47,402 bases of DNA from Oscillospiraceae bacterium (GTDB lineage Bacteria; Bacillota; Clostridia; Oscillospirales; Oscillospiraceae): positions 1 to 47,402 of the forward strand of contig CADBCV010000008.1 of NCBI GenBank assembly GCA_902793285.1, in the 5' to 3' direction. Below, piece by piece: positions 12,842-38,268 of this stretch. Below the pieces are notes generated by a model that ran no database searches, was not told where the DNA came from, and worked only from the letters and a program-made list of their open reading frames with translations. Position 1 is the stretch's first letter; every line of letters starts with the position of its first letter. A program made the position numbers and the translations under genes.

Positions 12842-12999
12842 TCTCAATTGGATACACCGAGTTTATCCGAAGCAAGATATCGACCGCCCTCCTGGGGCTA
12901 AGGCCATACGGACAGCCGGGTCGGATGCCGAAGAACCGCGGAAGGCGGCGGCAACTTCTGTTGCCTTATTGATTGAGTTAAAAGCTCAAGTTTTATAGT
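12842..12999 (+). ncRNA. Candidate structured RNA / riboswitch-like leader upstream of potABCD
   Basis: The predicted transcript folds extensively. Seen pairings are GGATA/TATCC near 12850-12870, GCCC/GGGC near 12885-12900, CGACC/GGTCG closing that region, and a perfect GGCAAC-ttct-GTTGCC hairpin at 12950-12965. CTCAAT at 12843-12848 can pair with ATTGAG at 12972-12977 and close the whole fold. The same ATTGAG strand can instead pair with CTCAA at 12985-12989, forming a hairpin followed by GTTTTATAGTTTTG. Mutually exclusive pairing of this sort is typical of riboswitches. I do not recognise a known RNA class. It may be a stand-alone small RNA rather than a leader. Confidence 0.55.
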
Positions 13000-33849: not shown

Positions 33850-34126
33850 AACAAGTGCATAACACCTGAACATGGCGATGAAGAGAAGAGTAGTCCGTCT
33901 GAAGCCTTCGCAGAGAGTCCCGGGAGCTGAAAAGGGACAGGACAGGGGCGGATGAACATGGTCTCGGAGCCGCGGGCGTGAGGGTTTCCCCCAAGCGCGC
34001 GACGGGTACTCCCGTTACAGAGGATGCGCGTGTCGGCGCGCTTTGAGGCAGCGGTTTCCGCTGTGAAGCAAGGTGGTACCACGAGATGATTATCCCGTCC
34101 TTACAGTTTTTGTAAGGGCGTTTTTT
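33850..34126 (+). promoter_or_regulatory. Methionine T-box leader
   Basis: This leader senses uncharged tRNA-Met. Stem I carries GAAGAGTAGTCC (AGTAG element) near 33881, and the specifier loop reads GAACATGG, making the codon ATG (33958-33960). The T-box proper, AAGGTGGTACCACG, lies at 34070-34083. It is followed by the terminator CGTCCTTAC/GTAAGGGCG with TTTTTT (34096-34126). When tRNA-Met is uncharged, it pairs with the T-box, prevents the terminator and switches on metNIQ. Confidence 0.93.
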
Positions 34127-34140
34127 GTTGGAGAAATACG

Positions 34141-35220
34141 ATGATCGAACTTGAGGCTTTGAACAAATCCTTCGGCGCGAAGGACAGCGCGGTGCGCGCG
34201 GTGGACCATGTGTCCCTGCAGGTAAACGAGGGGGACATCTATGGCATCGTCGGCTACTCCGGGGCCGGCAAGAGCACGCTTGTGCGCTGCATCAACCTGC
34301 TGGAGCTGCCGGATTCCGGCACGATCCGGGTGGCGGGCTTCGGCGCGGTCAGCTTTGAAAACGGGCGGGCCTTTTTCCAGAACGACAGCGGTGCGCGCGA
34401 GGCGCTCACGGAAAAGCGGCTCAAGCTCCTGCGGCGGGACATGGGCATGATCTTCCAGCACTTTAACCTCTTGGACCGCAGCACGGTCTTCGATAACATT
34501 GCCTACCCCTTAAAACACAGCGGCATGGGCAAGGCGCAGATCAGGGCGCGGGTCCTGGAGCTTCTGGAGCTTGTGGACCTTCGCGAGAAGATCAACGCCT
34601 ACCCCTCGGAGCTCTCCGGCGGACAGAAGCAGCGCGTCGCGATCGCAAGGGCGCTGGCCAACAACCCCCGCATCCTCCTGTCGGACGAGGCGACCTCCGC
34701 TCTCGACCCCGACGCGACGGAGTCGATCCTGCACCTTTTAAAGGAGCTCAACCGCAAGCTCAATCTCACCATCGTCCTCATTACGCACGAGATGGCGGTG
34801 GTCAAGGCGATCTGCAGCAAGGTGGCCGTGATGGAAAACGGCCGCGTTGTGGAGCAGGGCGAGGTATACAAGGTCTTCTCCGAGCCGCAGGCCACCATCA
34901 CCCGCAAGTTTGTGGACAGCTCCTCCGGTCTCGGGCGCATCAACAAGCTCATTGACGAGCACGCGAACGTCATCAGCGGCGGCGGCACCCTCATCCGCCT
35001 GACCTACAACAAGGACTGCGTGGGCGACGCCCTCATCTCCGAGGTTTCCCGCCGCTATGGCGTGAACATGAACATCCTCCTCGGCAGCCTTGAAATCCTG
35101 CAGGGCAGCCCTCTCGGCGGGCTCATCGTGCTGGTGGAGGGCGAGATGGACGCACGGCGCGAGGCGATCCGCTATCTGTGCGAGAAGAACGTGATTGTGG
35201 AGGTGATCGAGCATGGCTGA
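34141..35220 (+). CDS. metN: Methionine ABC transporter ATPase
   Basis: The 359-residue protein energises methionine import. Walker A is GYSGAGKST (38-46), the signature LSGGQKQR, Walker B ILLSDEATSALD, and the C-terminal NIL domain (about 275-355) is the regulatory methionine-binding module of MetN. It follows the T-box terminator by 14 bases. It overlaps metI by 8 bases. Confidence 0.95.
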   Translation: MIELEALNKSFGAKDSAVRAVDHVSLQVNEGDIYGIVGYSGAGKSTLVRCINLLELPDSGTIRVAGFGAVSFENGRAFFQNDSGAREALTEKRLKLLRRDMGMIFQHFNLLDRSTVFDNIAYPLKHSGMGKAQIRARVLELLELVDLREKINAYPSELSGGQKQRVAIARALANNPRILLSDEATSALDPDATESILHLLKELNRKLNLTIVLITHEMAVVKAICSKVAVMENGRVVEQGEVYKVFSEPQATITRKFVDSSSGLGRINKLIDEHANVISGGGTLIRLTYNKDCVGDALISEVSRRYGVNMNILLGSLEILQGSPLGGLIVLVEGEMDARREAIRYLCEKNVIVEVIEHG

Positions 35221-35926
35221 GTGGCTGGCGAGTATCATGCCGAATGTGGTGGACTACAGCGGCAAATTCTGGTCGAGCTGTCTTGCCACGGGGCAGATGT
35301 TCCTCATCGCGGGCGGCTTCACGCTCGTCTTCGGCAGCATTTTCGGGGTGCTGCTCACGGTGACGAAAAAGGGCGGCATCATGGAAAACGCCCTGGTCTA
35401 CGGCCTTGTGAACACGCTGACCAATGTGTTCCGCTCCATCCCCTTTGTGATTCTGCTGATCTTTCTCATCCCGCTCACGCGCATGATCGTGGGCACGGCG
35501 ATCGGCGTCAAGGGCGCCATCGTGCCGCTGGTGTTCGGTGCTGTCCCCTTCTTTACGCGCCAGGTGGAGGCCGCGCTCGCAAACGTCGCCCCTGGGAAGG
35601 TGGAGGCCGCCGCCGCGATGGGAAGCGGCAAGGTCGGCATCATCTTCCGCGTCTATCTGCATGAGGCCGTGCCCGATCTCATCCGCGCCGTCACCATCAC
35701 GGCCATCAGCCTCATCGGCCTGACCACTATGGCGGGCGCGGTCGGGGCCGGCGGCATCGGCAGCTTCGCCATCAACTACGGGCAGAATCTCCACCACCAG
35801 GACATCGTGAACGTGTGCGTGCTGGTGCTGCTGGTATTCGTGTCCCTGATTCAGGGTCTCGGCAACTCCCTGGCCCGCCGCACCACCAACCGCAGTCTGT
35901 TCCGCCGCAAGGCCGAAACAAAATAA
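35213..35926 (+). CDS. metI: Methionine ABC transporter permease
   Basis: The 237-residue permease has five to six membrane helices, with the MetN-docking loop EAAAAMGSGKVGIIFRVYLHEAVP (about 123-146). Family blocks NVFRSIPFVILLIFLIPLTR and TTMAGAVGAGGIG are clear. The start overlaps the end of metN. It forms a homodimeric channel with MetN. Confidence 0.94.
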   Translation: MAEWLASIMPNVVDYSGKFWSSCLATGQMFLIAGGFTLVFGSIFGVLLTVTKKGGIMENALVYGLVNTLTNVFRSIPFVILLIFLIPLTRMIVGTAIGVKGAIVPLVFGAVPFFTRQVEAALANVAPGKVEAAAAMGSGKVGIIFRVYLHEAVPDLIRAVTITAISLIGLTTMAGAVGAGGIGSFAINYGQNLHHQDIVNVCVLVLLVFVSLIQGLGNSLARRTTNRSLFRRKAETK

Positions 35927-35964: not shown

Positions 35965-36885
35965 ATGTCTAAGAAAGTTCTCACGCTGGTAAGCACCCTT
36001 CTGCTGGTCGCGCTGCTGGCCTCCCTCTCCCCCGCCGCCTTCGCGGCGAGCGATATCCTCATCGGCATCCCCGACGACGCCACGAACGGCGGCCGCGCCA
36101 TCAAGCTGCTCGAGTCCGTCGGCCTCATCGAAGTCAACCCCGACGCCGGCTGGACGCCCGAGCTCAAGGACGTCACGAAGTATCTCTACAACATTGAGAT
36201 CATGCCCACCCAGGCCAACACCCTGCCCGCCACGCTCGACGACTTCGGCGCCTCCACCATCAACGGCACCTACGCCATCCCGACGGGCCTTGTCCCCTCG
36301 AAGGACGGCCTCGCCATCGAGTCCCAGGCCGGCGCCACCACCGAGGACGGCAACCCCTTCGTGAACGTGGTCGTGGCCCGCAGCGCCGACAAGGACAATC
36401 CCCTCTACGCCTCCATCCAGTCCGCCTTCCAGTCCGACATCGTGGGCCAGTACCTGATCGCAAAGTACAACGAGGCCTTCATCCCCGCCTTTGACTATGC
36501 CGACACCGACAAGACCAATGAAGAGCTCCTCGCCCTCATCGACGGCTACAAGGCCGACAAGGCCGGCAAGACCGTGGTGAAGGTCGGCGTCTGCGGCGCG
36601 TCCAACGACCACTGGAAGGCCGTCCAGTACGTCCTCGACCAGGCCGGGGCCGACATCTACATCGAGCTTGTGGAGTTTGACGCCTACAACCTGCCGAACG
36701 AGGCTCTCAATAGCGGCGACATCGACCTCAACTCCTTCCAGCACAAGGCCTATCTCGCCAAGGAGGTCGACTCCCAGGGCTACGAGATCGAGACCATCTT
36801 CGACACGCTCATGGCCCCGCTCACCCTCTACTCCAAGAAGTTTGACTCCGTCGACGCGCTGAAGGCCGCCGCCGGGACCAAGTAA
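35965..36885 (+). CDS. metQ: MetQ-family methionine-binding protein with circularly permuted lobes
   Basis: The 306-residue protein is MetQ-like but its two halves are in reversed order. After a signal peptide, residues 29-177 carry what is normally the second half: IPDDATNGGRAIKLLESVGL, then STINGTYAIPTGL and VVVARSADKDNP. Residues 203-306 carry what is normally the first half: VVKVGVCGAS, IELVEFDAYNLPNEAL, GDIDLNSFQHKAYL, TLYSKKFDSVDALK. Joining the end (KAAAGTK) to residue 29 (SDILIGIPDD) would restore the usual order. The signal ends in AFAAS with no lipobox Cys, so it is either secreted or held by its N-terminal helix. AAAGGAGATCATACC precedes the start. Context (T-box, metNI) supports methionine binding. 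Confidence 0.88.
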   Translation: MSKKVLTLVSTLLLVALLASLSPAAFAASDILIGIPDDATNGGRAIKLLESVGLIEVNPDAGWTPELKDVTKYLYNIEIMPTQANTLPATLDDFGASTINGTYAIPTGLVPSKDGLAIESQAGATTEDGNPFVNVVVARSADKDNPLYASIQSAFQSDIVGQYLIAKYNEAFIPAFDYADTDKTNEELLALIDGYKADKAGKTVVKVGVCGASNDHWKAVQYVLDQAGADIYIELVEFDAYNLPNEALNSGDIDLNSFQHKAYLAKEVDSQGYEIETIFDTLMAPLTLYSKKFDSVDALKAAAGTK

Positions 36886-37062: not shown

Positions 37063-38268
37063 ATGACCGAAACACAGAAGGCCCTGTATGAGGCGGTGCT
37101 GCGGGATCACGCATATGTGGTTTCGCTCCGCCGCGCGTTTCATCAGCACCCGGAGCTTGCCCGGGAGGAGTTTGAGACCCAGGCCATGATCGAGCGGGAG
37201 CTTGACGGGCTGGGCCTTTCCCACAGGCGGATCGCGGAGACCGGCGTTCTTGCCGAGATCACGGGCGCCGCTGAAGCGGAGGGCACGCCGCGCTGCATCG
37301 TCCTCCGGGCGGATATCGACGCGCTGCCGATCACCGAAGAAAACGGCGCACCCTACAAAAGTCTCACCCCCGGGAAGATGCACGCCTGCGGGCACGACGC
37401 GCACAACGCAGCCCTCATCGGGGCGGCGCGGGTCCTTGCGGCAAACCGGCATCTCTTTTCCGGCAAGGTGATCCTCGCCTGGCAGCCGGGGGAGGAGGTC
37501 GGCTTCGGCGCGCGGCCCATCGTGCGAAGCGGCGCCATCGACGAGGCGGGCCGCAGCTTCGGCGTACACATGGCCTCAAACCTCCCCGTCGGCTCGGCGG
37601 CGCTGGTCCCGGGGCCCAACAACGCGAGCGTCGACTGGTTCTGCATCCGGGTACACGGGCTTGCGGCCCATGTCTCCACGCCGGAGCGCGGGGTGGACGC
37701 CGCCTACATCGCGAGTCAGATCGTCGTGGCGGCCCAGGCCCTCATCACCCGGCGCACAAGCCCCATGGACAACGTGCTCATCGGCATCGGGAAGATCACG
37801 GCGGGCACCGCCTACAACATTGTCGCCCAGGAGGCGGAGCTGGAGGGCACGATCCGCGTGCTCACGCCGGAGCTCAGAAAGGCCACGAAGGAGCGGCTCG
37901 AGGCGCTGGCCGTGCAGACGGCGGCGCTCTACGGCGGGACGGCGGAAGTGGAGTGGAAGGACTTTACCTCCCCGCTTCTGAACGATCCCACGGCGACCGC
38001 CGAGGCGCAGAAGACCGCCGTCGCCCTCTTCGGGGAGGAGCATGTGATCCGCGCACGCGAGCCCGCCCTCGGCGGGGACGACTTTGCCGAGTTCATCCTC
38101 CGCGTCCCCGGGGTTTACGCCTATATCGGCTCATCCAATCCCGAAAAGCCCGACACCTGCGTGGCCCACCACAACGACCATTTCGACATCGACGAGGCCG
38201 CCCTCACCGTCGCGGCGGCGCTCTACGCCTGCTACGCGGCGGACTACTTAAACGGCGCGGTGGGGTAA
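37063..38268 (+). CDS. M20-family amidohydrolase (N-acyl-amino-acid hydrolase type)
   Basis: The 401-residue metallohydrolase is of the M20D type, which cleaves acyl groups from amino acids. Metal-binding and catalytic blocks are RADIDALPITEE, MHACGHDAHNA, AWQPGEEVG, FGVHMASNLPVG, and GGDDFAEF near the end. The frame is open upstream, but GAGGAG precedes the ATG at 37063. Placement 178 bases after metQ suggests it may release methionine or a related amino acid from an acylated form, though a separate role is possible. Confidence 0.88.
   Translation: MTETQKALYEAVLRDHAYVVSLRRAFHQHPELAREEFETQAMIERELDGLGLSHRRIAETGVLAEITGAAEAEGTPRCIVLRADIDALPITEENGAPYKSLTPGKMHACGHDAHNAALIGAARVLAANRHLFSGKVILAWQPGEEVGFGARPIVRSGAIDEAGRSFGVHMASNLPVGSAALVPGPNNASVDWFCIRVHGLAAHVSTPERGVDAAYIASQIVVAAQALITRRTSPMDNVLIGIGKITAGTAYNIVAQEAELEGTIRVLTPELRKATKERLEALAVQTAALYGGTAEVEWKDFTSPLLNDPTATAEAQKTAVALFGEEHVIRAREPALGGDDFAEFILRVPGVYAYIGSSNPEKPDTCVAHHNDHFDIDEAALTVAAALYACYAADYLNGAVG

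Follow-up and report, generated by a model that had tools for sequence, protein, structure and literature searches.

The closest described relatives of the gene discussed here are the MetQ/NlpA lipoproteins (PF03180), represented by E. coli MetQ (4yah, 6cvl). The gene lies in a stretch of 47,402 nucleotides from an Oscillospiraceae bacterium (contig CADBCV010000008.1 of GCA_902793285.1; hereafter the window), and its product resembles these lipoproteins in that both halves are homologous, the binding Asn is kept and metN and metI are its neighbours; it differs from them in that the halves are swapped, an extra linker is present and the lipobox is missing. We conclude that the product of the window gene is very probably a methionine-binding protein MetQ that has undergone natural circular permutation, and that the order of its halves has changed repeatedly within its clade.

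A naturally permuted binding protein was already known: TpMglB-2 (Tp0684) has been described as a circularly permuted glucose-binding protein of 'Type Ic' (PMC4990184). Like the window's MetQ it is a natural permutation of the binding protein of an ATP-binding cassette (ABC) importer, and it also occurs in treponemes and Gram-positive gut bacteria. The same account sets it apart by a Type I sugar-binding fold, in which a permutation inside the N lobe adds a fourth crossover, and the available text mentions neither in-place changes between orthologs nor re-linearisation (PMC4990184). TpMglB-2 was the sole natural permuted binding protein noticed among the literature matches listed, and a permuted MetQ/NlpA protein appears to be absent from the literature searched, a coverage that mostly excludes subscription papers; the sole match for MetQ was a review on imaging reporters, and NlpA gave none. 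The glycine betaine-binding protein OpuAC shares the overall fold and the lobe order at 11% identity and with another ligand; OpuAC has itself been described with a swapped domain order. To our knowledge, most natural circular permutations have come to light when distant homologs were compared. Those of DNA methyltransferases and of saposin/swaposin have been explained by duplication, with intermediates reported for the methyltransferases (PMC3320104); these are not binding proteins, and orthologs of differing order in one conserved operon go unmentioned in the available part of that source.

The permuted MetQ of the window

The protein, P0001, is encoded by an open reading frame (ORF) of 306 aa (35965-36885, + strand). 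It matches PF03180 with a total of 175.7 bits against a curated cut-off of 27, in two swapped pieces instead of one collinear match over the profile: residues 33-176 correspond to profile positions 100-236 and residues 205-302 to positions 1-97. The first-pass annotation had read the two halves as swapped, and separate alignment of each half to PF03180 bears this out by giving exchanged profile ranges, with E-values of 2.6e-28 for the C half and 4.5e-23 for the N half. The two swapped stretches are also seen in all three printed alignments of P0001 to MetQ-family structures in the PDB. A chance origin of the swapped match can be excluded because of these E-values and because the same order is found in many separate assemblies. 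On these alignments P0001 is a permuted relative of MetQ/NlpA and not a standard member of the family.

The C half is placed first (residues 29-177; 36049-36495, + strand), as supported by PF03180 positions 100-236 and the alignments to 4yah and 6cvl. It is followed by a linker that connects the former termini (residues 178-202 by the bounds of the first-pass annotation; 36496-36570, + strand), for which an AF2 model predicts a helix at 185-193, and by the N half (residues 203-306; 36571-36882, + strand; PF03180 1-97). The break had rightly been placed at the usual junction, where the halves lie 1-2 residues apart in 76 of 76 ordinary MetQs with the N half first (N-C). The linker proposed to join the old ends recurs with 26-30 residues between the profile ends in the 41 ORFs with the C half first (C-N) of what we call clade A, that is, proteins with >50% identity to the window's MetQ in reordered halves. 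Asn134 of P0001 (36364-36366) aligns with the methionine-binding N229 of E. coli MetQ in the 4yah and 6cvl alignments, and this Asn is invariant in 27/27 aligned sequences. P0001 stays below the NCBIfam cut-offs (NF008285, 151.2 against 374 bits; TIGR00363, 132.2 against 228.85; NF007364, 112.3 against 487); since the N-C relative from locus L148 misses the same cut-offs (177.3, 152.5 and 126.9 bits, respectively), this shortfall is caused by divergence and not by order only.

Three orders of one gene

A scan of contigs yielded 36 related loci, and the order of the window's MetQ, which the first-pass annotation had proposed to look for in related genomes, was found in 28 of them, one on a contig of 411 kb; five others are N-C and three have a third order. 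The titles of the 36 loci mention Oscillospiraceae/Ruminococcaceae, Solobacterium/Erysipelotrichaceae, Lachnospiraceae and other Bacillota, with spirochaetes among the N-C loci. Within the window's genus, 11 of 61 genomes (its own included) carry the window-type C-N gene and two a different C-N gene (clade B, see below), while 213 of 398 genomes of the phylum have a match, with C-N order in at least three (G000, G351, G603). Family samples searched at a strict cut-off of 1e-40 gave matches in 6 of 295 genomes (2 C-N, 2 N-C, 2 third order), 5 of 299 (4 C-N, 1 ordinary N-C) and 15 of 244 (10 C-N, 1 clade-A N-C, 4 ordinary N-C). Among 195 genomes from the family to which the spirochaete locus L064 belongs, 165 matched, and 15 of these (the query's own included) carry genes 73-100% identical to the N-C query. 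From a plasmid collection 420 records matched, all at <60% identity, and the ten listed rows each join two pieces. The ratio of nonsynonymous to synonymous substitution rates (dN/dS) is <1 for both halves and the linker in five usable comparisons, the signal peptide reaching 1.09 in one. The permuted MetQ is no singleton: its clade is conserved, and two further orders occur among close relatives. That ordinary metQ halves were misjoined by assembly or binning in one metagenome-assembled genome (MAG) might be suspected of a genome that is MAG-like, 79.5% complete and spread over 57 contigs. We nevertheless reject an assembly error and give such an artefact virtually no probability, given the same order and linker across 28 of 36 related public contigs, the 411 kb contig among them, and the dN/dS values of halves and linker.

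Clade A comprises 41 distinct C-N ORFs, 18 N-C and 3 of the third order (34, 16 and 3 clusters at 97%). The third order, c2-N-c1, found at loci L061, L065 and L067, begins with the final portion of the C half; the opening falls right after the strand carrying the binding Asn in all three, and their C pieces sum to about one C half, with an overlap of at most 7 profile positions (L065). In the third-order MetQ of L061, an Ala/Glu/Pro-rich tether follows the lipobox (L061:3836-4000).

Two pairs of orthologs document the change in place. Between L176 (C-N) and L177 (N-C), two collinear flanks (1327-4882/4-3618 and 5736-9964/4521-8754) have DNA identities of 74.6% and 72.9%, and the metQ blocks that they enclose are exchanged at 76.6% and 79.8% identity. 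The flanks of L061 (third order) and L038 (C-N) are 79.7% and 77.6% identical in DNA and their exchanged metQ blocks 83.6% and 88.6%. In both pairs the flanking operon is collinear and only the body of metQ is permuted. In protein, the blocks of order-differing orthologs are 73-85% identical, and the signal peptide stays first and is homologous (blastp identity of 47% for L146/L148 and 51% for L061/L009).

For the MetQ tree the halves were put in one order and aligned to purpose-built profiles, with clade A dereplicated at 93%; the careful version holds 58 rows, 44 from clade A and 14 ordinary N-C. It requires six order changes. Approximately unbiased (AU) tests reject a single clade of all permuted rows (p 8.2e-5), of the C-N rows alone (p 1.6e-5), of the clade-A N-C rows (p 0.0033) and of the third-order rows (p 3.4e-5), the third order having arisen twice by tree and test. 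In a MetN+MetI tree (38 rows, MetQ left out) L176 and L177 are paired at 100/100 and L061 is nested among C-N rows; the orders are scattered, with seven changes when clade B is labelled apart, and a grouping of all permuted operons in a single clade is rejected (p 4.2e-5).

Clade B is a second C-N clade (six rows: L015, L016, L017, L101, L129 and L130) with an SH-like approximate likelihood-ratio support (SH-aLRT) of 99 in the quick tree, where it sits among ordinary MetQs; A and B as one clade are rejected (p 0.010). Both were opened at the same hinge site, the linker measuring 26-30 residues in A versus 19 in B. In clade B metQ precedes metN and metI, and a lipobox-like cysteine was seen by eye in five of six proteins, three of which pass the pattern of our script. 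By these trees clade B is an independent C-N permutation. One could still hold that a single permutation occurred and that the N-C genes of Treponema and others are the untouched ancestral state: most MetQs in this set are N-C, and the C-terminal tail of clade-A proteins could be an older feature that eased permutation. This is very improbable, as the AU tests reject a single origin of the permuted order and reject the N-C rows too as a single clade, the L146 (C-N)/L148 (N-C) pair differs in order, the third order arose twice and clade B is separate.

Direction and route of the change

In the 76 ordinary N-C MetQs the tail after the profile measures at most 10 residues. All 18 clade-A N-C proteins, by contrast, have a junction of 4-14 residues and a tail of 23-26 residues, and in the L146/L148 comparison the blastp alignment runs through, so that the N-C tail aligns with the permuted linker. 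The long junction and the linker-like tail, absent from the 76 ordinary proteins, suggest that the clade-A N-C forms are re-linearised permutants; the swapped order would then be the older one inside clade A, and the N-C forms would mostly have been re-linearised. We accordingly lean, with some reserve, towards viewing MetQ of this clade as a ring with three alternative openings, in which the opening was shifted in situ six or more times, scarred returns to the ordinary order included; the topology of a single orthologous gene would then have evolved reversibly. A less probable account, which still deserves serious weight, starts from an N-C clade-A ancestor already equipped with the long tail, from which several independent permutations arose instead of one permutation and reversals. 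An N-C root gives an equal count of changes on the MetQ tree, and clade B shows that there was more than one origin; the clade-A N-C junctions, however, are what is expected of re-opened permutants, and the tails resemble the permuted linker.

The order would have changed in place, with signal peptide and flanking genes fixed, and the simplest route would be a tandem duplication of the mature region, with fusion and later trimming. Such an origin by duplication and trimming had been put forward in the first-pass annotation, and it stays conjectural. In its favour, two genomes of the window's genus contain an in-frame fused tandem MetQ (N-C-N-C) with one signal peptide (L029, ORF of 565 aa; L031, ORF of 528 aa), the copies being 94.7% and 97.7% identical; however, these fused proteins lie among the ordinary MetQs in the tree, and no remnant was seen beside the third-order genes (see below). 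In L134 and L131, two ordinary metQ genes stand side by side, with a single in-frame stop codon between their open frames. Alternatively, separate N and C genes may have been joined in different orders. Fission and fusion is a recognised route to permutation (PMC3320104), but we think it improbable here: signal peptide and flanks are unmoved in the two ortholog pairs, and the classified loci, which were not surveyed for split genes, contained no complete gene for a lone N or C half, one gene in L038 being truncated at the edge of the stretch.

Operon, export and proposed function

The setting given in the first-pass annotation, a T-box and metNI, was confirmed. A T-box leader (33869-34105, + strand; Rfam RF00230, 103 bits, gathering cut-off 93) precedes metN, an ATPase with a NIL domain (34141-35220, + strand; PF00005, PF09383; best match TIGR02314 ABC_MetN at 359.9 bits, below its cut-off of 499.7), and the permease gene metI (35213-35926, + strand; PF00528; best match NF008049 MetI at 188.2 bits, below its cut-off of 212). 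An ATG at the presumed specifier position (33958-33960, + strand) is invariant in eight of eight aligned T-boxes (the window and seven permuted-metQ loci), preceded by C or G, and probably represents a Met specifier codon. Counting non-repeated loci, metI lies directly upstream of metQ in 29/32 C-N, 3/3 third-order and 7/7 N-C loci; the exceptions are the C-N loci L057, L058 and L182, where metQ is placed before metN. Downstream follows an M20 amidohydrolase gene (37063-38268, + strand; PF01546, PF07687; TIGR01891 above cut-off), which keeps this position in many relatives. The Solobacterium/Erysipelotrichaceae loci and L057/L058 have a distant version of this neighbour (24-28% identity), and L059 gave no match. 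Elsewhere in the window (12881-12931) there is a match to SpF59_sRNA (RF02440, described as a Streptococcus sRNA; 65.4 bits, cut-off 37.2).

The lipobox had correctly been noted as absent. The signal peptide of P0001 (35965-36048, + strand), read directly and aligned with relatives, contains no cysteine and ends in an A-F-A signal peptidase I-like site. With start codons picked by a script rule, a strict lipobox pattern is found in 17 of the 27 clade-A C-N proteins left after dereplication, and eight, the window's included, have no cysteine in the signal peptide; L160 and L161 have a near-lipobox by eye. The pattern is passed by 3/3 third-order and 4/14 clade-A N-C proteins, and the ordinary N-C MetQ of the window's own genome (G000:C15, L001) also has a signal peptidase I-like site in place of a lipobox. 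Because most C-N proteins keep the lipobox while ten of 14 clade-A N-C proteins do not show the pattern and the genome's ordinary MetQ lacks it, its loss is a change separate from the permutation. Loss of the lipidation machinery was rejected as a cause, the Lgt and LspA families both matching in the genome above cut-off. The window's copy has probably changed further, from a lipoprotein to a protein of the signal peptidase I type.

In all likelihood the permuted MetQ functions as the binding protein of MetNI, controlled by a Met T-box. It would be exported, bind methionine and dock on MetNI like ordinary MetQ, and uncharged tRNA-Met would raise its expression by way of the T-box. The fold would keep its closed ring and differ in the opening alone, the 26-30 residue linker closing the old termini. 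A protein that no longer serves MetNI and has taken on another ligand or role is an unlikely alternative, for which one may cite the ordinary metQ on C15 with metN- and metI-like neighbours (read by eye) and an identity to MetQ structures of at most 41% among the matches listed; the operon with metN and metI, the T-box with its invariant ATG and the invariant binding Asn speak for a methionine-binding partner of MetNI.

Several points weigh against the picture drawn here. For the permuted form, methionine binding, docking and transport are predictions from sequence, and the named permuted records are all MAGs or 'uncultured' assemblies. In N. meningitidis, lipidated MetQ is reported to stimulate MetNI most and secreted unlipidated MetQ to have little effect on MetNI ATPase (PMC8416018), so the lipobox-less form is harder to explain. 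The T-box is not general, exceeding the gathering cut-off in 7/12 C-N, 0/3 third-order and 0/2 N-C loci (17 scanned). The direction of change in clade A depends on the scars, because six changes are needed whether the root is N-C or C-N, and the long junction and tail could be ancestral insertions. The MetN+MetI tree, rooted on two very distant clade-B operons, disagrees with the MetQ tree on the positions of Treponema, L178, L179, L065 and L067, so that the count of changes may be affected by operon transfer or weak branches. Partial repeats or partial-duplicate intermediates were not seen in clade-A genes, nor was any C-half remnant between the stop codon and the M20 gene in L061, L065 and L067 on reading three frames; this reading also dismissed a duplication remnant that tblastn had suggested for L065 and L067, where its match seemed to continue beyond the stop codon.

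Permuted proteins can be overlooked when profile matches are read as one piece: P0001 appears in Pfam as one family hit, and the swap is visible only in its two stretches. With syntenic orthologs of differing order, the steps of a permutation, the linker that it needs and the possible openings of a two-lobed binding protein become open to direct study.
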